A stretch of DNA of 45,921 nucleotides. It comes from Candidatus Woesebacteria bacterium GW2011_GWB1_39_10. Lineage in GTDB: Bacteria > Patescibacteriota > Microgenomatia > UBA8517. The stretch is from positions 1-45,921 of the forward strand of contig LBVU01000005.1 in NCBI GenBank assembly GCA_000993205.1. Direction: 5' to 3'. The notes beneath the pieces were generated by a model, which searched no databases, was not told the origin of the DNA, and worked only from the letters and a program-made list of their open reading frames with translations. A program made the position numbers and the translations under genes. Every line of letters starts with the position of its first letter. The stretch's first letter is position 1. Positions 1,474 to 21,643 of this stretch are shown piece by piece.

Positions 1474-3828
1474 TTATCGCCGGGGTTTTGGCGGGTAGAA
1501 TGGCGGAGGCTGTTTAAAAGGTGTTTCTTCGCGGTAAGGTGTTGGTTCTGATTGTGATGTCCGCGGCGGGTGAGGGTTATTCGTCTCTCCTCCCGGTTGT
1601 GCATTTGGCGCGATCGGTGCGGGGTAATCCGGGGTTTTGCTTCCGTAGTTATTAATTACCAATTCTTCATTCTCAATTTTTCTAGTCCAGCGCTCACGGC
1701 TAACTTGAATCACTTTGTCCTTATTTTCATTAACTGAAATTGGTAAGGGAAGGGTAGTGGACACAAAAGGTCTTGTAACTTGACTATCAATTGTCATTTT
1801 TGTAGCCACCTGGAAACGGCCCAGATTAACCAAGTCGTTAGCAGTAAAAACTTCGGCAAACTCTTTATTTAAAATATCCGCATCTCCCGCTCCAACAGCA
1901 AATGTCATGACGGTTCCCGCGTTACCCAAAATCGCTTTGGTGACCTCTTCCGGAATTTGGGCCATGTATTGATTGGCAAGCATTATGTCCAAGCGATATT
2001 TGCGGGCCTCAGACATAATTTTAATGAAACTTCCCGTAGCAAAATTCTGAAACTCATCTACGTACAGATAAAAATCACGTCTTTCTTCCTCGGGTAAGCT
2101 TACTCTATGCATTGCGGCAAGCTGGAATTTAGTGATAAGCATGGCCCCCAGTAGGGCCGCGTTATCTTCTCCAAGGCGTCCCTGAGCTAAATTGGCAAGT
2201 ACGATTTTGCCCTGATTCATGGCGTCATCAAGACTTATTGAGCTATGGGGTTGTCCAATTACTGTTCTAATCAGTGGGGAAGTAACAAACTGTCCAACCT
2301 TGTTTAAAATAGGGGAAATTGCTTCTTGCTGAAGTTTTTCAGGCATTTTATCAAATTCATCCCGCCAGAATGCGCGCATTGTTTCGTCTTGAATTGTGTC
2401 CTCTATTTTTAGACGAAAAGACCTATTGGTTAAAAGTAACGGCACGTCGCGTAAAGTTGAATTTGGAATTTGAGAAAGAGTAAAAAGGGAATTTCTTAAA
2501 ATATATTCAAGTCTTGGGCCCCAGGAAAAGCCGAAAATTTTATTAAAAATGGAAACAATTCCGCTAACTACCAATTCCGCCTCTTCCTTATTGGTAACCT
2601 CCAGGGGATTTATGACAATTGGGTAGTCTTTATCGGCGGGATTAAAATAGATTACATCGTTAATTCTGTTTTTGGGAATGTAATTTAAGATAATGTCGCA
2701 AAGGTCCCCGTGAGGATCAATAATGGCCATTCCACGGCCTTTTTTAATGTCATCGATTGCCATGTTGGCAATAAGGGTAGATTTACCCGTACCGGTTTTA
2801 CCAATTGCCCAAATATGACGGCGCCTGTCTATATCCTTAATTCCGAAAATAGTTTCGCGGTTTTTAAATATAGTCCTGCCAAAAAAGTTTATATGTTGCT
2901 TTTCTTCTTCAGTTGCCGTAACGGCATTAGGAAGATTTTCGGGCGGTTCAGACAAGACCTTTGTTCCCCAAGCAATACCTTGAGTTTTGATTTTATCCGA
3001 CGGAAGATGCCAGAGGGTAGCAAGTTCCAGGATATTGAGAATATTATTTCCGCTTACAGTACGACTAAGTGTGTTCTGAATAACTTTATTTTTTGAGTTA
3101 AGAGCGAATAGCGAATAGCGAATAGGAGAGAAATGGTTTCCATCGGACCTTGAGTAAACGCCAAAAGCTGAAGCAAGTTCCGTTATGGTTTTGCTTTGGT
3201 TGCTTATAAGACGTATCGACGACTTGAACCCTGGGTAAGAAATTTTTTCAGTAATAATCATTTTGTCCGATCTTGGGGACCAAACGTCATTCTCATTTTT
3301 GGTACCATGGTCGGCGTAAGAGGCCCCGCTCACTTGCCAGCCGCCTCCTGTCGACTCAAGCGCGATTTGAACCATGGAAGTCTCGGTCGGCTCGGATTTG
3401 GAAAGAACCGAAAGAACGGAAGCAAGGGGGTCCACGTCTGCAAACTTGTCATAAGTGCCGATTGGGTAATAACTGCCCTTGGCGAGTTTAAGCTCTTTAA
3501 CTAATAGGGTCTGACCCGTTCGATTTCGCTCAGGGTCTTCGATCCTAAGCGGATCTACGACTTTCTCAATTACAACAAGGGGATAGTTGCTTTGAATCTG
3601 GGTTTCTATAAACTGGGCAATATCAGCGTCACAGGTAATAAGAAACCTGATTTGTTGGTTTACACTGGCGATTTCTAATGCTAAGGCATGGGGCTTAGTG
3701 CCGAATAGTTTTTGGATAGAGGAGACTGAATTAATCTGGGTTAGTGCCGCCAAAAAAGTCTTGGCAGCCTCGGGAGTTACTTCAATATTCCTTGGAAGCT
3801 TAAGAAAAAGGGTGGTCAGGGTTGGCAT
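1474..3828 (-). CDS. TraD/VirB4-type DNA-binding secretion ATPase
   Basis: This 784-aa protein is a HerA/FtsK-superfamily ATPase related to type IV coupling proteins (TraD/TraG) and VirB4. The Walker A motif GKTGTGKST is at residues 343-351, followed by IDPHGDL near 370, and Walker B LYVDEF is at 588-593 with a TraM-recognition-like helical stretch after it. Residues 1-300 form a divergent N-terminal domain; the last 60 residues are Pro-rich and probably disordered. Such ATPases energise DNA transfer or pilus/secretion assembly at the membrane. Its neighbours are small membrane proteins, which suits a compact secretion or transfer module. Residues 98-107 (DPERNRTGQT) are encoded by a palindromic repeat of the genome. 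No relaxase gene is visible nearby. Confidence 0.85.
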   Translation of the reverse strand: MPTLTTLFLKLPRNIEVTPEAAKTFLAALTQINSVSSIQKLFGTKPHALALEIASVNQQIRFLITCDADIAQFIETQIQSNYPLVVIEKVVDPLRIEDPERNRTGQTLLVKELKLAKGSYYPIGTYDKFADVDPLASVLSVLSKSEPTETSMVQIALESTGGGWQVSGASYADHGTKNENDVWSPRSDKMIITEKISYPGFKSSIRLISNQSKTITELASAFGVYSRSDGNHFSPIRYSLFALNSKNKVIQNTLSRTVSGNNILNILELATLWHLPSDKIKTQGIAWGTKVLSEPPENLPNAVTATEEEKQHINFFGRTIFKNRETIFGIKDIDRRRHIWAIGKTGTGKSTLIANMAIDDIKKGRGMAIIDPHGDLCDIILNYIPKNRINDVIYFNPADKDYPIVINPLEVTNKEEAELVVSGIVSIFNKIFGFSWGPRLEYILRNSLFTLSQIPNSTLRDVPLLLTNRSFRLKIEDTIQDETMRAFWRDEFDKMPEKLQQEAISPILNKVGQFVTSPLIRTVIGQPHSSISLDDAMNQGKIVLANLAQGRLGEDNAALLGAMLITKFQLAAMHRVSLPEEERRDFYLYVDEFQNFATGSFIKIMSEARKYRLDIMLANQYMAQIPEEVTKAILGNAGTVMTFAVGAGDADILNKEFAEVFTANDLVNLGRFQVATKMTIDSQVTRPFVSTTLPLPISVNENKDKVIQVSRERWTRKIENEELVINNYGSKTPDYPAPIAPNAQPGGETNNPHPPRTSQSEPTPYREETPFKQPPPFYPPKPRR
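3515..3535. repeat. REP-like palindrome inside the ATPase gene
   Basis: The segment GACCCG-ttcgatttcgct-CAGGGTC forms a small hairpin, contributes about ten residues in frame near residue 100 of the TraD-like ATPase, and resembles the CCCTTCGGCTACGCTCAGGG palindrome near the tRNA remnants at 8725. Confidence 0.4.
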
Positions 3829-14143: not shown

Positions 14144-14283
14144 ATTCCAAAACAAAAGCTCATCAGCCTTCGCCAAGACTTCGGCCGACACAGTCGCCAG
14201 CTCGCCCCGCGAAGCTTCAGCGAAATGGGGAACAATATTTTGAATAAATTCCCCTAGATTCCTCTAATTTCCTCTAAGTTCCT

Positions 14284-15838: not shown

Positions 15839-16963
15839 GTGACTTCAAAAACGAAAAGTAAAACAAGTATTACAGGTACTACAAGTAGTACAGGCATAAC
15901 TATGGCAGAGCTTCTTGCTGGCGCCAAGAACAAAGTTCAGCAATTCACCAAAGGACAAAGAGTAAAGGCCACAATACTCTCAAAATCTCCGGAATCTGTT
16001 ATTTTTGACGTTGGTGGAAAAAGTGAGGGAATTGTCAAGGAAAAAGGCTACACGGACACAAAAGAATATATTGAGGGATTAAAAGTCGGTGACAGCGTTT
16101 TGGTCACAATATTGGTTCCCGAAACCCGCGACGGAATAACAATCCTTGGCCTTAAAGATGCCATGCACGATGTTTCCTGGGAAAAACTTGAGCAAATGAA
16201 GAAAGACGGAGTCGAAGTTCCGGTCTTGGGTAAAGGTGTCGGAACTGCGGGTTTTGTGGTTGATGTAATGGGAATTGAAGGATTCATTCCTACTTCACAA
16301 ATGGGTTCTGACGTAAGCAAAAACGCCCAAGACTTGGTAGGTAAGTACTTCAAGGCAAAGGTAATGGAAATCAACAAGGCGAGTAAAAAAGTTGTTCTAT
16401 CCGAGAAAGAAGTGTCGGAAGCAGGGGATATTGCACTGGCCAAAAAAGCAATGGAAGCGGTCAAAGAAGGAGAAGTTTACGAAGGAGTGGTAACTACCGT
16501 TGCCGCTTTTGGGGCTTTTGTAAAAATCGAAGTTCCCGTCAAAAAGGAGAAAGCTTACATAGAGGGACTCGTCCATGTTTCAGAACTTTCTTACTCCAAA
16601 GTTAATTTGCCCAGCGACGTAGTCAAAGAAGGTGACAAAGTTAAGGTCAGGGTACTTGCCGCGCACGAAGGCAAACTTGCCCTCTCCATTAAACACGCCG
16701 GACGCGATCCCTGGAGCGAAGTAGAAGATAAATTTAAGCCTGAAGCAAAGGTCACGGGCAAAGTCGTTCGCATCAGCGACTTTGGAGTATTTGTAGAACT
16801 AACACCAGGTGTAGAAGGTTTAATCCACATCACTAAAATTCCACCTACCCACAAATTAGCCTTGGGGCAGGAAGTTAAATGCAATATTGAAGAGATTAAC
16901 GTCAAAGACAAGCGCATCGCCCTCGGTCTGGTCCTCACCACAGCCCCAGTGGGGTATAAATGA
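15839..16963 (+). CDS. rpsA: Ribosomal protein S1 (four S1 domains)
   Basis: The 374-aa protein is built of four S1/OB RNA-binding domains (about 37-105, 125-190, 210-285 and 303-368). Typical signatures are FDVGGKSEGIV, GIEGFIPTSQMG, GAFVKIEV..YIEGLVHVSEL and GVFVELTPGVEGLIHITKI. It binds mRNA on the 30S subunit and helps initiation. The start is GTG at 15839, behind GGCAGG. With many short-leader transcripts here, S1 action on leadered messages may be selective. The last ten codons (VLTTAPVGYK) are repeated, recoded synonymously, 3.4 kb downstream at 20331-20363, suggesting insertion of a foreign segment at the gene end. Confidence 0.92.
   Translation: MTSKTKSKTSITGTTSSTGITMAELLAGAKNKVQQFTKGQRVKATILSKSPESVIFDVGGKSEGIVKEKGYTDTKEYIEGLKVGDSVLVTILVPETRDGITILGLKDAMHDVSWEKLEQMKKDGVEVPVLGKGVGTAGFVVDVMGIEGFIPTSQMGSDVSKNAQDLVGKYFKAKVMEINKASKKVVLSEKEVSEAGDIALAKKAMEAVKEGEVYEGVVTTVAAFGAFVKIEVPVKKEKAYIEGLVHVSELSYSKVNLPSDVVKEGDKVKVRVLAAHEGKLALSIKHAGRDPWSEVEDKFKPEAKVTGKVVRISDFGVFVELTPGVEGLIHITKIPPTHKLALGQEVKCNIEEINVKDKRIALGLVLTTAPVGYK
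16931..16963 (+). repeat. Left boundary repeat (rpsA 3' end)
   Basis: The last 33 nt of rpsA, encoding VLTTAPVGYK and the stop, contain a CCCC-agt-GGGG hairpin. The same peptide and stop are encoded at 20331-20363 with four silent or stop-codon changes. It is probably one end of an integrated island. Confidence 0.65.
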
Positions 16964-17035
16964 GCCCAGTTTTGCTAAAAGTACTCATCTGTTTAGTCCT
17001 TGCAATCAATTCGAGTCAATAAGATAATTATTTTA

Positions 17036-17476
17036 GTGATCAAAAAACTTGCAATTGGTTTATTGTTGTTAATTCTTGCTTTAGGGTTTGGTTTTTGGTT
17101 ATATATTCGTTATTTTATTCCGGTACCGCATGAGACGTGGACATATACATCGATAAGTGTGACAAGAAAAAGTGACGGTTTGGTTCTGGGTAGCATTAAA
17201 GTTGAGAATAAAAAAATAATAAACGATATCAAAGATTATAAAATAAAAATCTTTATAAATAAAAATAAGAACAGTTGGGAAACTGGGGAATTGTCGTATC
17301 CAATCGGAGGCCAGACGTGGACAGGATCGTTATGGGATGGAGTAAGAACAACCACAATAGATAACAATGAACACTTATTATCAATTTATGGAATATTAAG
17401 TGATGAATTTGATAGCGATTTCACTTTTAAGTTAAACAAAACCAGAGAATATGGCACAAAAAGGGGTTTTAAATAA
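17036..17476 (+). CDS. Membrane-anchored hypothetical protein, about 146 aa
   Basis: GTG at 17036 gives MIKKLAIGLLLLILALGFGF, a classic N-terminal anchor or signal sequence; an upstream TTG at 17000 would add 12 residues. The rest (about residues 30-146) is a polar, beta-rich extracellular domain with Trp and Lys-rich stretches. No family is recognised. It is first in the AT-rich island after rpsA and convergent with the next gene. Confidence 0.55.
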   Translation: MIKKLAIGLLLLILALGFGFWLYIRYFIPVPHETWTYTSISVTRKSDGLVLGSIKVENKKIINDIKDYKIKIFINKNKNSWETGELSYPIGGQTWTGSLWDGVRTTTIDNNEHLLSIYGILSDEFDSDFTFKLNKTREYGTKRGFK

Positions 17477-17481
17477 ACTCT

Positions 17482-18066
17482 TCACTTTACCTCAAGAGCA
17501 ACAGAAATGTTGGGGAGATATGTCAAATTAACCAGACGGTTGCAATCACCACTTATTCTAAGAACCTCATTAAAATTATTTGTAGGGAGTAGCATTTTTT
17601 CAAAGTCTTTCTGAATGATATGAACATACCTGTCTTTTCCATCAGGACCTTTTATATACATTGTGTACCAGCCAAGAGGATTATCAAACTCCCACCTATT
17701 TGAAGTCAGAGTGCAGGAGCCGAAATAAGAAATTGGTCCGTTTGAAAGATCGTTAAAGCTCTTGAGTGGAGACTCAAGAAGTGTGGAGTAAATAATGGCA
17801 ATCAGGAAAAAAGACATAACAAACAAGCGGGTCGTGTTTTTTTGCATTTTCCATTGGAATGTTTTTATCATATTAAAAAAAAGAACAGCCATTCCGATAG
17901 GAAATAGGGTATGGAGAGCAAGTTCAATTATTAACAAAACTTTCCAATTACTGGTATTAATAAAATCTACCAAGATCCAAAAGCGATAAAACATCCAAAA
18001 CACAGCCAGAACCGAAACGATAAACGATATTTTGTTTTTATTTCCGTCTAAAGGTATTATTTTCAT
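17482..18066 (-). CDS. Polytopic membrane protein with extracellular domain
   Basis: The 194 residues contain about three hydrophobic helices (12-33, 41-66 and 80-98), then an external domain of about 95 residues with two Cys (Cys117 and Cys174) that could form a disulphide. No family is recognised. Codon use is strongly AT-biased, like the rest of the island. It is read away from the 18151 gene across a shared palindromic promoter region. Confidence 0.55.
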   Translation of the reverse strand: MKIIPLDGNKNKISFIVSVLAVFWMFYRFWILVDFINTSNWKVLLIIELALHTLFPIGMAVLFFNMIKTFQWKMQKNTTRLFVMSFFLIAIIYSTLLESPLKSFNDLSNGPISYFGSCTLTSNRWEFDNPLGWYTMYIKGPDGKDRYVHIIQKDFEKMLLPTNNFNEVLRISGDCNRLVNLTYLPNISVALEVK

Positions 18067-18106
18067 AATTTTTTCGCATCCTTAACTACAAGAAGTCGTG
18101 GTTTGC

Positions 18107-18145
18107 TTATGATATGATTGAGTTTGATTTGAGTCAATATCATAA
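18107..18145. promoter_or_regulatory. Divergent promoter palindrome in the island
   Basis: TTATGATAT (18107-18115) and ATATCATAA (18137-18145) form an inverted repeat, with inner ATTGAG/GAGTCAAT partly complementary. It lies between the divergent starts at 18066 and 18151 and could bind one regulator for both genes. Confidence 0.4.
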
Positions 18146-18150
18146 TAATT

Positions 18151-18684
18151 ATGAGTGTTAATAAAATGAAAAAAAATAGACTTGTTTTAGTTTTGGTAAT
18201 TTTAATTGCAGTTGTTTTGGGAGTGGGGCAGGTCTTTCGGGAAAAAAGATATACAACCAAGGGTTATGCGACAAAAGTTGGTTTTTCAAAGCTAACTTTT
18301 AGTTACCATCCGGGGTGGGAAGTTACAGAAGACGCAAGTTTGGAAAAATCATTTGACAAAATTAAGGTCTCAAAAAACAATTATGTTATTAATATCAACC
18401 AGGAGTTGATAGCGGGTACAGGAACATGTAAATTTAAAGATTCTCCGCTATTTAATGGGCCGTCAAGAGACTTCACTCAAGTTAAGTTTGACGAACTGGA
18501 TTCTAATTTAGGGGAAATGCGTTATTTTAAAGATGTCCAAACTTATATTTTTTGTATTAAATCAACAAAAGAAGAAATTGGTTATGAACTAAGCGATATT
18601 ACTATACAAACACCACCACAAGTAAATGAAAAAATATTTACTGAGGCCTTAGATGTTATTAAAAGTATTAAAAAAGTAGAATGA
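18151..18684 (+). CDS. Membrane-anchored hypothetical protein, 177 aa
   Basis: A basic N-terminus and hydrophobic helix (residues 10-27, LVLVLVILIAVVLGVG) form an anchor or uncleaved signal; an alternative ATG lies at 18166. The external part begins like a domain found in small lipoproteins (FSKLTFSYHPGWEVTEDASL) and has two Cys (Cys92 and Cys134). The pattern YHPGWEV is reminiscent of PsbP-like or stress-related surface domains, but I do not assign a family. AT-rich codon use matches the island. Confidence 0.6.
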   Translation: MSVNKMKKNRLVLVLVILIAVVLGVGQVFREKRYTTKGYATKVGFSKLTFSYHPGWEVTEDASLEKSFDKIKVSKNNYVININQELIAGTGTCKFKDSPLFNGPSRDFTQVKFDELDSNLGEMRYFKDVQTYIFCIKSTKEEIGYELSDITIQTPPQVNEKIFTEALDVIKSIKKVE

Positions 18685-18741
18685 AATTAAGTACTATAAA
18701 AAAGCAACCCATTGAGGGAACTGCATACATTAGAATAACTT

Positions 18742-19338
18742 ATGGAACAGCCTAAAAAATCATTTGATTGGATATCTTTTTTTAGAATTGTATTTTTGGG
18801 AACCTTACCCTTTTGGTTTTTATTGATGCTTTTTGGGTTGGGGATGTCTTCTGATTACAACTCAAATAAACCTTTTGCTAATAGGGCTGTGGACTGGTTA
18901 CTTTATCCTGTAGTTGGATTGGCGTCGATGTTTATTGGTTGGATTTTGCAAAAAAAGAACAAACAAAAAATCGCAACGATTATTACTTCGATACCGAGTG
19001 TTATAGTATCTATTCTTATTTTATTTTTTATAATTGTTTTTACATACACATTATTTTCTACTTATTTTCCTTTTAATGGTAAAGCTCGCTATTCGGGCCA
19101 AATAGTGATTTCATTTAAAGACGGGACAACAAATCAAGAGGCGGAGGATGTATTAAATAAAAACGGTTTAGAACTACCATTTTTTTACTCTTCAGATCGT
19201 AAGCATCTTAAAACAGCCGGATTTTATATTGTAAAGGTAGAAAAGGGCAAAGAAAGTGAAGTTGCTAGAATTTTACTTAATGATTCACACATAAACACTG
19301 CCGAATATGGATTCAACTACTCAAAACTCTATGAATAA
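18742..19338 (+). CDS. Membrane protein with I9-like extracellular domain
   Basis: This 198-aa protein has three hydrophobic helices (about 12-30, 50-68 and 78-104) and a C-terminal external domain of about 80 residues. That domain (GQIVISFKDGTTNQEAEDVLNKNG..AGFYIVKVEKGKESEVARIL) resembles the inhibitor I9/subtilisin prodomain fold: a strand, a helix, then a strand-helix with a final short strand. No protease is encoded next to it. A TAGAAT -10 lies 5 nt before the ATG, so the transcript is probably leaderless. Confidence 0.6.
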   Translation: MEQPKKSFDWISFFRIVFLGTLPFWFLLMLFGLGMSSDYNSNKPFANRAVDWLLYPVVGLASMFIGWILQKKNKQKIATIITSIPSVIVSILILFFIIVFTYTLFSTYFPFNGKARYSGQIVISFKDGTTNQEAEDVLNKNGLELPFFYSSDRKHLKTAGFYIVKVEKGKESEVARILLNDSHINTAEYGFNYSKLYE

Positions 19339-19855
19339 ATATTTAGAAAAAAATATTCCTTGTTACTCCCACGGAAAAGTTGGTGGTGTTTTTGAGTTAG
19401 TTTTTATACTTTATATTATTCTCTTTTTCGTTTTAACAATTTCTATTAATTTTTCAGCCAAAATATTTATAGGATTTATTTTGTTTTTATTACTATTTTT
19501 ACTTTGTGTAAAAATTTATGGAAATTTTAGAAAAAAGCAGATTAACTGGTTAAAAAGAAATGGAGAAAAATTATCATCAAAATTTAAAACAATAACTTTA
19601 GACTTGTGGAGATCGGTTATTTTCCAAAAAGGATATATACATACCGTAGCTACAAAAGATCATACTCAATTAAAATTTTACAGCGATATCGTTTCCTTCG
19701 GTTATAGCTATTTCTGGCCATCTAAGAGTAAAGCAGTAAATAAGGTATTAATCCATGGTGAAAATATCGATGTCTGGATAAATCCTGATCACCCAAATGT
19801 TTATTGGGTAGATACAGACTTTTTAAAACAAAATGAAAAAAAGTACAAAAAATAA
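19331..19855 (+). CDS. Membrane protein, about 174 aa
   Basis: I prefer ATG 19331 (MNKYLEKNIPCYSHGKVGGV), which overlaps the previous stop by 8 nt; ATG 19307 in the same frame is possible. Two adjacent hydrophobic helices (about 20-42 and 44-62) form a hairpin and a soluble, partly basic domain follows. That domain (ENIDVWINPDHPNVYWVDTDFL) resembles the DUF3592-type extracellular domain seen in other small membrane proteins. It is co-directional with its neighbours and overlaps both. Confidence 0.55.
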   Translation: MNKYLEKNIPCYSHGKVGGVFELVFILYIILFFVLTISINFSAKIFIGFILFLLLFLLCVKIYGNFRKKQINWLKRNGEKLSSKFKTITLDLWRSVIFQKGYIHTVATKDHTQLKFYSDIVSFGYSYFWPSKSKAVNKVLIHGENIDVWINPDHPNVYWVDTDFLKQNEKKYKK

Positions 19856-20249
19856 ACCAAGATTGCTAAAATTTGTTTTTGTAATTCTTTTTGTTGCCGG
19901 TTTGTTTTTTGCTGGTTTATTTTACATCCGCTTTTCATTTAACAATGGTTTTTCAAAGTTGGCCTGTGATTTTAAAGGATATAAATGGTTTAATTTTGGA
20001 ATGGGGCCGACCGGATGCTATCAAACATATCCGGATGGCGGTAAAGCTTGCACTTCAGGGGACGAATGCGTTTCTAATACCTGCTTTACTTCCGGACTTA
20101 ATTTTGGTGACGAAAAAAGACCAATGGACAATCTCGTTGGTAAATGTCCGAGTATTGGCCCCGCCTACAGTGAAAATATTACTCTGTGCGGGTCTGCTAA
20201 AATTGAAAAGGGAAAGGTGGTTGAGGATAAACGAGGTTGTATATATTAA
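19833..20249 (+). CDS. Secreted Cys-rich hypothetical protein, 138 aa
   Basis: The N-terminus is basic and a hydrophobic helix follows (about 13-30), so the protein is exported or anchored. The external part has nine Cys, including CTSGDECVSNTC, a spacing like that in the Cys-rich surface protein at 23207. Start ATG 19833 overlaps the preceding gene by 23 nt. No enzymatic motif is visible; a disulphide-stabilised surface protein is the best guess. Confidence 0.6.
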   Translation: MKKSTKNKPRLLKFVFVILFVAGLFFAGLFYIRFSFNNGFSKLACDFKGYKWFNFGMGPTGCYQTYPDGGKACTSGDECVSNTCFTSGLNFGDEKRPMDNLVGKCPSIGPAYSENITLCGSAKIEKGKVVEDKRGCIY

Positions 20250-20258
20250 TTTAAAAAA

Positions 20259-20321
20259 ATGAATCCAGAGACAAAAGCACTTCTAATCATTTTATTAATA
20301 GTTGTAGGTATTAAGCCATAA
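20259..20321 (+). CDS. Possible 20-aa hydrophobic peptide
   Basis: ATG 20259 begins MNPETKALLIILLIVVGIKP and stops at 20319-20321. It would make a single hydrophobic helix. It lies at the end of the island just before the duplicated rpsA end. There is no ribosome-binding site; it is listed because it follows the other island genes in order. Confidence 0.25.
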   Translation: MNPETKALLIILLIVVGIKP

Positions 20322-20330
20322 ATTGGCACA

Positions 20331-20363
20331 GTCCTCACTACAGCCCCAGTGGGGTACAAGTAA
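20331..20363 (+). repeat. Right boundary repeat (recoded rpsA 3' end)
   Basis: These 33 nt encode the same last ten residues of S1 plus a stop. They differ from 16931-16963 by ACC to ACT, TAT to TAC, AAA to AAG and TGA to TAA. All differences are silent, so each copy was once the functional 3' end of an rpsA gene. Confidence 0.65.
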
Positions 20364-20364
20364 A

Positions 20365-20475
20365 AGATTAAAGGAATTTAGAGGAACTTACAGGAATTTA
20401 TGGGGTTAAGATTAAGGGTAAGTTGGTGTCTGTTTCTGTAAACTCCTTTAAATTCCTATAAATTCCTCTAAACTA
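20365..20475. repeat. AT-rich palindrome (family F) before a four-helix-bundle gene
   Basis: AAAGGAATTTAGAGGAACTT on the left is complementary to AAATTCCTCTAA-type sequence on the right, with the unit TTCCTCTAAATTCC repeated. Similar words recur inside and after the 20481 gene (to about 21220) and after 5S (14250-14283). Confidence 0.55.
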
Positions 20476-20480
20476 ATTCT

Positions 20481-21161
20481 GTGGACGACATAGTTAAACA
20501 GTTAATCGAGAAAACTTACCTAGAGCTATCGCAAGGTCAAAAACCCCAGGAAAAATCAAGAATTTCAAAAACCGTAAACGGTTATATATATCTGGTAGCC
20601 TGGTCAAACGCAAGTCTCCTTCGTGTTTTAAATAAGAAGTTCACAGACAGCCTTCCCAAATCTTTATATAGATTAAAAACGCAATCCGACGATGCCACAA
20701 GATCAGTTGTTGCCAACATAGAAGAAGGCTTTGCCCGCCAAACCACCTCAGAGTACATAAATTTCTTGGGTTATTCTCGGGCAAGTTTGATAGAGGAAAA
20801 AGGGGATGTTCAAAGAAGTTTGCAGGACGGGATTCTAAAGTCAGCACCCGGCTCAAGTTTAAAAAGTTTGGGGATTAATTTAGAAGACTGGCATGAAGCA
20901 CTTAAGAAGTCAGTCATTTCAAAACCAGATAAAGGAAGTTATAGGAAATTAGAGGTGATTAAAGGGTCCTTTAAGTTCCTTTACGACCCCGTAGATTCCC
21001 TTAGGGCCGAGACCCTGACTTACGAAATTTTCATAGAACTTATAAATAAAACTGACTGGAACATTAGGAAACTAGTTGAATCTTTGGAGAAAAAGCTAAA
21101 CGCGGATAAGAAGTTTTACCAGGTTGAGAAGATGAGAACGTTCGAGAAATTTAAACGATAA
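20481..21161 (+). CDS. Four-helix-bundle protein (23S IVS-protein family), long form
   Basis: The 226-aa protein contains the hallmark of the 23S intervening-sequence (IVP/S23) four-helix-bundle family: ATRSVVANIEEGFARQTTSE at about residues 73-92, then FLGYSRASLIEEKGDVQ. Usual members are about 120 aa, so this one has about 100 extra residues, partly encoded by the local TTCCTCTAA-type repeats (about 155-170). The start is GTG at 20481. These proteins occur inside 23S IVS elements of Leptospira and Coxiella and are pentameric helical bundles of unknown role. Palindrome family F surrounds the gene. Confidence 0.8.
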   Translation: MDDIVKQLIEKTYLELSQGQKPQEKSRISKTVNGYIYLVAWSNASLLRVLNKKFTDSLPKSLYRLKTQSDDATRSVVANIEEGFARQTTSEYINFLGYSRASLIEEKGDVQRSLQDGILKSAPGSSLKSLGINLEDWHEALKKSVISKPDKGSYRKLEVIKGSFKFLYDPVDSLRAETLTYEIFIELINKTDWNIRKLVESLEKKLNADKKFYQVEKMRTFEKFKR

Positions 21162-21271
21162 ACTCCCTGCCTGCCGGCAGGCTTTAAAATCCTCTAAATT
21201 CCTCTACAGCCCTGTAGACCCCCTTAAAGCCGAAGATTTGACTTTCAGATTTTTGAGCATAGAATCTTCAT

Positions 21272-21643
21272 ATGCAGGAAAGGCAGGTTCAATTTTCAGA
21301 AGAAGAGAAAACGGCAATTGCAGAAACGGCGCGGGACGTAGCAAGAATCGGCGAAGATTTCGTCTGGGAGATGGTTTATGCTAAAGTCGAGTTAATGAAA
21401 TTGGCTCTAAAGGCCGTATTTAACGGGATAGTGATTGACAATGTTTATTACACACCTACTCAAATTAGACACGAAGTGGATGTAATCGGAGCGGTTATAG
21501 ACCAGGCTAGGATCATCCTCCAGGTAGAGGGACGTGACACGATGAGTGAATTGGACAGACACACACAGGAAGCCGGTTTGGGCTCTGTCTTTGATCCCGG
21601 ATCAGAGATAAACAGCAGACTAAAAGATGTTTATGGGAGATGA
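21272..21643 (+). CDS. Hypothetical helical protein, 123 aa
   Basis: This soluble, mostly helical, acidic protein of 123 residues is not recognised. A -10 TAGAAT ends 6 nt before the ATG, indicating a leaderless transcript. Its upstream region carries the last TTCCTCTA repeats and a perfect CCTGC/GCAGG palindrome at 21169-21183. It is followed after about 40 nt by another leaderless small gene. Confidence 0.6.
   Translation: MQERQVQFSEEEKTAIAETARDVARIGEDFVWEMVYAKVELMKLALKAVFNGIVIDNVYYTPTQIRHEVDVIGAVIDQARIILQVEGRDTMSELDRHTQEAGLGSVFDPGSEINSRLKDVYGR

Follow-up and report, generated by a model that had tools for sequence, protein, structure and literature searches.

In a contig of the uncultured Candidatus Woesebacteria bacterium GW2011_GWB1_39_10 (Patescibacteriota; Microgenomatia; UBA8517), the end of the ribosomal protein gene rpsA recurs about 3.4 kb downstream of the intact gene, and a block of AT-rich genes lies between the two copies. 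The structure is best called an integrase-less variant of an island integrated at a gene 3' end, with rpsA as the target. On the basis of the sequence, we consider the chances about even that an AT-rich 3.4-kb island without an integrase was inserted at the rpsA 3' end together with a replacement tail. Mobile DNA may use the rpsA 3' end as a landing site that has so far gone unnoticed; a search of the literature, largely of papers available without subscription, retrieved no earlier description of integration at rpsA. Little is known about the ways in which reduced Patescibacteria acquire genes. If our reading is true, a duplicated S1 tail would offer a concrete, searchable signature for small mobile cassettes in these bacteria, the end of an essential ribosomal gene would serve as a landing site for surface-protein cargo without an integrase, and rpsA would join the known list of ribosomal-gene integration sites.

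The repeated rpsA end and the enclosed island

The window (the whole stretch of DNA analyzed here) comprised 45,921 nt, positions 1-45,921 of the forward strand of LBVU01000005.1 (assembly GCA_000993205.1), and represents a single contig from a draft genome of 1.08 Mb. Its rpsA gene (15839-16963, plus strand) is intact and encodes a 30S ribosomal protein S1 of 374 aa with three S1 domain stretches (PF00575); the product shares 96% amino acid identity with S1 of the nearest relative compared, and the NCBIfam S1 models score it under their cut-offs. The last 13 codons including the stop codon TGA (proximal tail; 16925-16963, plus strand) serve as the S1 end. A second copy (distal tail, GTVLTTAPVGYK*; 20325-20363, plus strand) ends with TAA, lies on the same strand with the S1 reading frame kept and appears as an untranslated leftover. 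The two tails are candidate attL-like and attR-like junctions, respectively. As the earlier note had pointed out, the last ten codons and the stop recur about 3.4 kb downstream with silent changes only and another stop codon: both copies encode VLTTAPVGYK, with silent differences at ACC/ACT, TAT/TAC and AAA/AAG and with TGA/TAA as stops. Codon 11 from the end differs (CTG Leu in the proximal and ACA Thr in the distal tail), and codon 12 is again silent (GGT/GGC). Over the frame-aligned 39 nt, 31 positions are identical (27 of 29 between 16931-16959 and 20331-20359), and the longest exact stretch is 17 bp (exact core, 16940-16956). Such recurrence is far beyond chance: the downstream copy matches at 29 of 33 positions, compared with a maximum of 22 among 200 shuffles, and shuffled windows searched for the tail with up to three mismatches gave zero hits. 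The pair accounts for all S1 tail copies in the 1.08-Mb genome. The DNA stem within the repeat is not unusual.

The DNA between the tails is compositionally foreign. Its GC content is 32.0% versus 41.7% and 42.8% in the 5 kb on the left and right, respectively, and no other 3.36-kb segment of the contig is as low (minimum 34.9%). The six island genes (g1-g6) have a GC content of 26-37% versus 39-45% in adjoining genes, with GC3 values of 22-36%; the comparison of GC and codon use across the borders, which had been proposed as a check, thus showed the island to be AT-rich. The expected six or seven AT-rich genes for membrane or secreted proteins were also recovered, as six ORFs of 138-198 aa, all of them predicted to contain hydrophobic segments. 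Two further ORFs, of 20 codons each, directly adjoin the repeats. The first of these short ORFs (16960-17022, plus strand) is hydrophobic and overlaps the S1 stop codon (ATGA). It is followed by g1 (17036-17476, plus strand; 146 aa with a single hydrophobic segment at the N terminus, no family assigned), g2 (17482-18066, minus strand; 194 aa, three hydrophobic segments), g3 (18166-18684, plus strand; 172 aa, predicted to be secreted or anchored), g4 (18742-19338, plus strand; a putative membrane protein of 198 aa with a weak protease-prodomain-like match, PF22148, 21.2 bits versus a cut-off of 21), g5 (19307-19855, plus strand; a putative membrane protein of 182 aa) and g6 (19833-20249, plus strand; a predicted secreted Cys-rich protein of 138 aa). 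The second short hydrophobic ORF (20259-20321, plus strand) ends 3 nt before the distal tail.

None of the six genes received a firm assignment from Pfam, NCBIfam, PHROGs or PADLOC. Among the 56 relatives searched for homologs, including the nearest relative and family members, no convincing homologs of g2, g4 and g6 were found. Weak and distant homologs of g3 are present in other Microgenomatia families (G326, G292 and G130), none of them beside S1, and a 32% homolog of g5 occurs in another Microgenomatia family (G293), not beside S1 either. The g5 relative belongs to an AT-rich cluster at a contig end (L130, G293:C52, 4499-7449) whose small ORFs encode membrane or secreted proteins; this cluster is possibly a related island. 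Given these distant relatives of g3 and g5, the latter in a similar AT-rich cluster, the cargo is, as far as sequence similarity can tell, of Patescibacteria type, with envelope or secreted proteins, rather than viral. Structure models were of low confidence (pLDDT 63 for g3 and 47 for g5), and the fold search with g3 was uninformative. Neither DNA nor protein matches to phages, plasmids or viral contigs were found for the island. We also considered a prophage or phage satellite and rejected it, as searches against PHROGs, phages and viral contigs gave no significant match to phage-family proteins in the island.

The empty site in a relative and a second duplicated tail

A comparison with the rpsA downstream region of a relative without the island had been suggested in the earlier note. 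The only close relative, Ca. Woesebacteria CP066686.1 (G001; one MAG), offers it: the island is absent, and the single S1 tail (GGC CTA GTC CTC ACA ACA GCC CCA GTG GGG TAC AAG TAA) matches the distal copy of the window. Downstream of S1 in G001 come a small lipoprotein-like ORF and, next, the gene equivalent to the one starting at 21272 in the window (L033 9636); the island block between S1 and this common downstream gene is missing. Both flanks in the window are syntenic with G001 and lie on one contig. Over the 39 nt of the tail, the distal copy differs from G001 at 3 positions, the proximal copy from G001 at 6 and the two copies from each other at 8. At five sites the distal copy and G001 agree against the proximal copy, at two sites the proximal copy and G001 agree against the distal copy, and at one site all three differ; the proximal and distal copies agree against G001 at zero sites. 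Beyond the right edge of the exact core, the distal copy shows no difference from G001 (CAAGTAA), compared with three differing sites in the proximal copy; to the left the signal among the three tails is mixed. Because the single tail of G001 resembles the distal copy, the latter looks like the displaced original S1 end, and the proximal end appears to have arrived with the island. It should be noted that the tail is short, so that this polarity, which we infer from a small sample of sites, depends on 3 versus 6 differences. The pattern on the two sides of the core fits a crossover inside it, which would place native left and element right sequence at the proximal border, and element left and native right sequence at the distal border.

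The same tails bear on a tandem duplication of S1, in which the second copy would have decayed and AT-rich genes would have been gained in between. The orientation and preserved S1 frame of the distal sequence agree with such an origin. However, a decayed second rpsA at the distal repeat, which the earlier note had set against an island border, was looked for, and no S1 remnant exists upstream of the distal tail, either in the window or in the second case described below. Moreover, the distal tail is nearer to S1 of G001 than to the local copy, no site unites the two local copies, and a decaying copy would not be expected to show silent-only differences. We regard tandem duplication and decay as largely refuted and as improbable.

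An S1 tail duplicated with different cargo was found in a genome of another family than the window host (G053). On its contig 37 (L143), the tail of S1 extends to position 149, and its last 18 codons, stop included, are found again in a copy (RRISLGLVLKAKPIGYK*) that extends to 954. The two tails match at 50 of 54 positions at a spacing of 805 nt (shuffle maximum 32) and differ by four silent changes (CGC/CGT, ATT/ATC, TAT/TAC and AAA/AAG). The insert of ∼0.75 kb contains a single GNAT acetyltransferase gene on the minus strand. The S1 body is located on contig 31; this contig breaks off within the tail and shares an exact 127-bp overlap with contig 37; since this overlap looks like an assembly-graph branch, another S1 continuation may exist in the population. 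No close relative of G053 was found for an empty-site comparison. Outside the S1 tail, no border sequence common to the window and G053 inserts was detected, and no inverted-repeat core common to the two sites was evident. In both inserts the repeats end near the S1 stop codon, and an 11-nt stretch revealed by the tail alignments (16940-16950, plus strand) lies inside the exact core of both tail duplications. This stretch would be a candidate exchange zone if both cases use one crossover place.

The window host and G053 genomes are both multi-contig drafts, and the break of the G053 contig inside S1, with its exact overlap, would be in keeping with an assembly or binning chimera. On the other hand, the 17-bp exact match between the window copies is shorter than usual assembly k-mers, the window flanks are syntenic with G001 on one contig and the same anatomy recurs in G053, which makes a chimera very improbable. 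When the window and G053 were taken together, 9 of the 10 differing tail codons were silent, versus about 26-29% for random change. Thus, the two tails should have acquired their differences in separate lineages, at a time when each still functioned as an S1 end, so one end would have come from elsewhere. Staggered break and repair also gives direct repeats without an integrase, and either such a target-site duplication or DNA captured where the S1 tail was broken would suit an island in which none was found. However, the copies would then begin identical, and the excess of silent changes argues against neutral drift of one copy; the probability of this explanation appears very small.

A survey of 97 S1 loci of the class (1.02 Mb of downstream DNA) identified a duplicated S1 tail in the window and G053, and the 95 other loci were without it. 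Similarly, when 374 genomes of the class were scanned for the motif P-[VI]-G-Y-K-stop, two nearby copies were seen only in the window genome and G053. Extra hits of this pattern in G027, G289, G308 and G164 had no S1-like sequence upstream and were attributed to chance, and a 26/36 tail match in G096 (L202) was also judged to be chance after inspection. Apart from S1, other gene-tail duplications (0.6 Mb of loci) look by their spacing like tandem paralogs or repeats. S1 and radA are an ancestral neighbor pair across the order and class (loci L038-L077) and are 8-150 nt apart in many members. The gap between them reaches 6.8 kb in the window and 4.7 kb in G001, and often holds lineage-specific genes. 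It is therefore a hot spot where such genes collect, usually without a duplicated S1 tail.

Possible routes of integration

Under the preferred reading of an integrase-less island integrated at rpsA, an island of Microgenomatia-type envelope or secreted-protein genes would have entered the last ∼40 nt of the gene. Its own S1-like end would complete the S1 frame, at least with ...TAT AAA TGA, and the original end of the host, ...TAC AAG TAA, would have been pushed to the far border. Conservative, site-specific recombination could have made the exchange by a crossover inside the tail, 16940-16950 being one possible place, and what is replaced may be no more than the last two codons plus the stop, rather than ten codons. 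With the same residues encoded by the incoming end, S1 would remain intact, as is the case for e14 at icd and for elements at rpsI, rplL and rpmG. The recombinase would either be gone from the island or act in trans, as an Xer-type enzyme or the integrase of another element. The features found here are direct repeats at a gene 3' end, one of which completes rpsA, an empty site in G001, and foreign composition and gene content. Profile searches (Pfam, NCBIfam and PHROGs) found no integrase in the island, as had been noted from its ORFs, and no recombinase was found in either the window or the G053 insert. With its own integrase looked for and not found, the island is not filed as an integrative element proper. 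Thus, the earlier claim of an island integrated at the rpsA 3' end with a replacement end gained from the empty site, the foreign GC content, the lack of a decayed S1 and the G053 case, and its site-specific part was weakened by the missing integrase and by the 95 of 97 S1 loci without a duplicated tail.

Two Xer-like tyrosine recombinases are encoded in the host genome outside the island, each with a counterpart in G001. The host genome also has three large serine recombinases (L139 7563-9191, L141 9607-11181 and G000:C2:944-1384), two of which carry Pfam Recombinase and zinc-ribbon domains. In IMEX and pdif modules, integrase-less cargo between recombination sites is moved in trans by host XerCD at dif or dif-like sites. 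The window island is similar in that integrase-less cargo is flanked by candidate recombination sites; however, the S1 tail is, by eye, unlike the canonical dif.

The Escherichia coli element e14 carries its own integrase and shares its target gene icd with phage 21. It integrates in the icd 3' end, brings a replacement end and has the displaced end (163 bp) at its far border (PMC6379469). The island resembles e14 in having the 3' end of a protein gene as target, a replacement end and a displaced end at the far border, whereas e14 is a 15-kb prophage with an integrase and the window insert has 3.4 kb, no integrase found and a homology of 39 nt. Streptococcal integrative elements target the 3' ends of rpsI, rplL, rpmG, guaA and lysS, where their direct repeats measure 12-54 bp (PMC4701971); for the staphylococcal island SscPIC2865 at rpsR, the repeat is 15 bp long (PMC8407400). 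Both resemble the window island in the use of ribosomal-protein gene 3' ends, direct repeats and an unchanged or nearly unchanged product. In contrast with the window island, they carry tyrosine integrases and, in the streptococcal elements, also conjugation modules. The targets named in the parts of the two papers considered here do not include rpsA.

The site-specific route would explain the two borders in a single step and has parallels in e14 at icd and the streptococcal elements; we hold it to be about evenly balanced between right and wrong. A possible but somewhat unlikely alternative is homologous recombination anchored in S1, in which the S1 allele of a foreign strain and its downstream genes recombine inside S1, and the far joint forms by short or illegitimate homology in the host S1 tail, which is left as a scar. 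No special recombinase is needed, and both the silent-only differences and the missing integrase would be accounted for. In addition, genes come and go at S1-radA without tail duplication, and Patescibacteria have been described as naturally competent, many of them with recombination genes (PMC12455944). However, the far joint falls within the last ∼60 nt of S1 in both cases, with no longer S1 piece left in either, an argument that is weakened because the cases were ascertained by a tail search. A linear donor would also need S1-like sequence right of the cargo to make the structure at once. A broader reading of the site-specific integration, which we consider rather unlikely, is that the rpsA 3' end is a recurrent Microgenomatia site for integrase-less cassettes (one to six genes, 0.75-3.4 kb) with an S1-tail half-site. 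A host or helper recombinase would move them in trans, and each insertion would exchange the final codons of S1.

A gene module next to the distal tail

Directly after the distal S1 tail, a gene of the 23S_rRNA_IVP (four-helix-bundle) type starts (20366-21237), wrapped in 10-bp-periodic inverted repeat arrays (TTTAGAGGAA / TTCCTCTAAA). In another genus, a 74%-identical IVP gene with the same arrays immediately follows the stop codon of groEL (L114, G032:C28, about 2070-3000, minus strand), and the IVP gene with its arrays looks like a separate mobile module inserting at gene 3' ends. Part of the IVP coding sequence, LYDPVDSLRAETLT (20960-21012), recurs in degenerate form as LYSPVDPLKAEDLT (21185-21240), after the IVP gene and up to the promoter of the next gene. 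Solo copies of the 10-bp repeats were observed at 14259-14283 in the window, on contigs 3 and 4 of the host genome (G000) and in the rRNA operon spacer of G001 (L033 2349-2371), between the tRNA-Ala and 23S matches. These repeats may constitute a REP-like family that goes with IVP genes.
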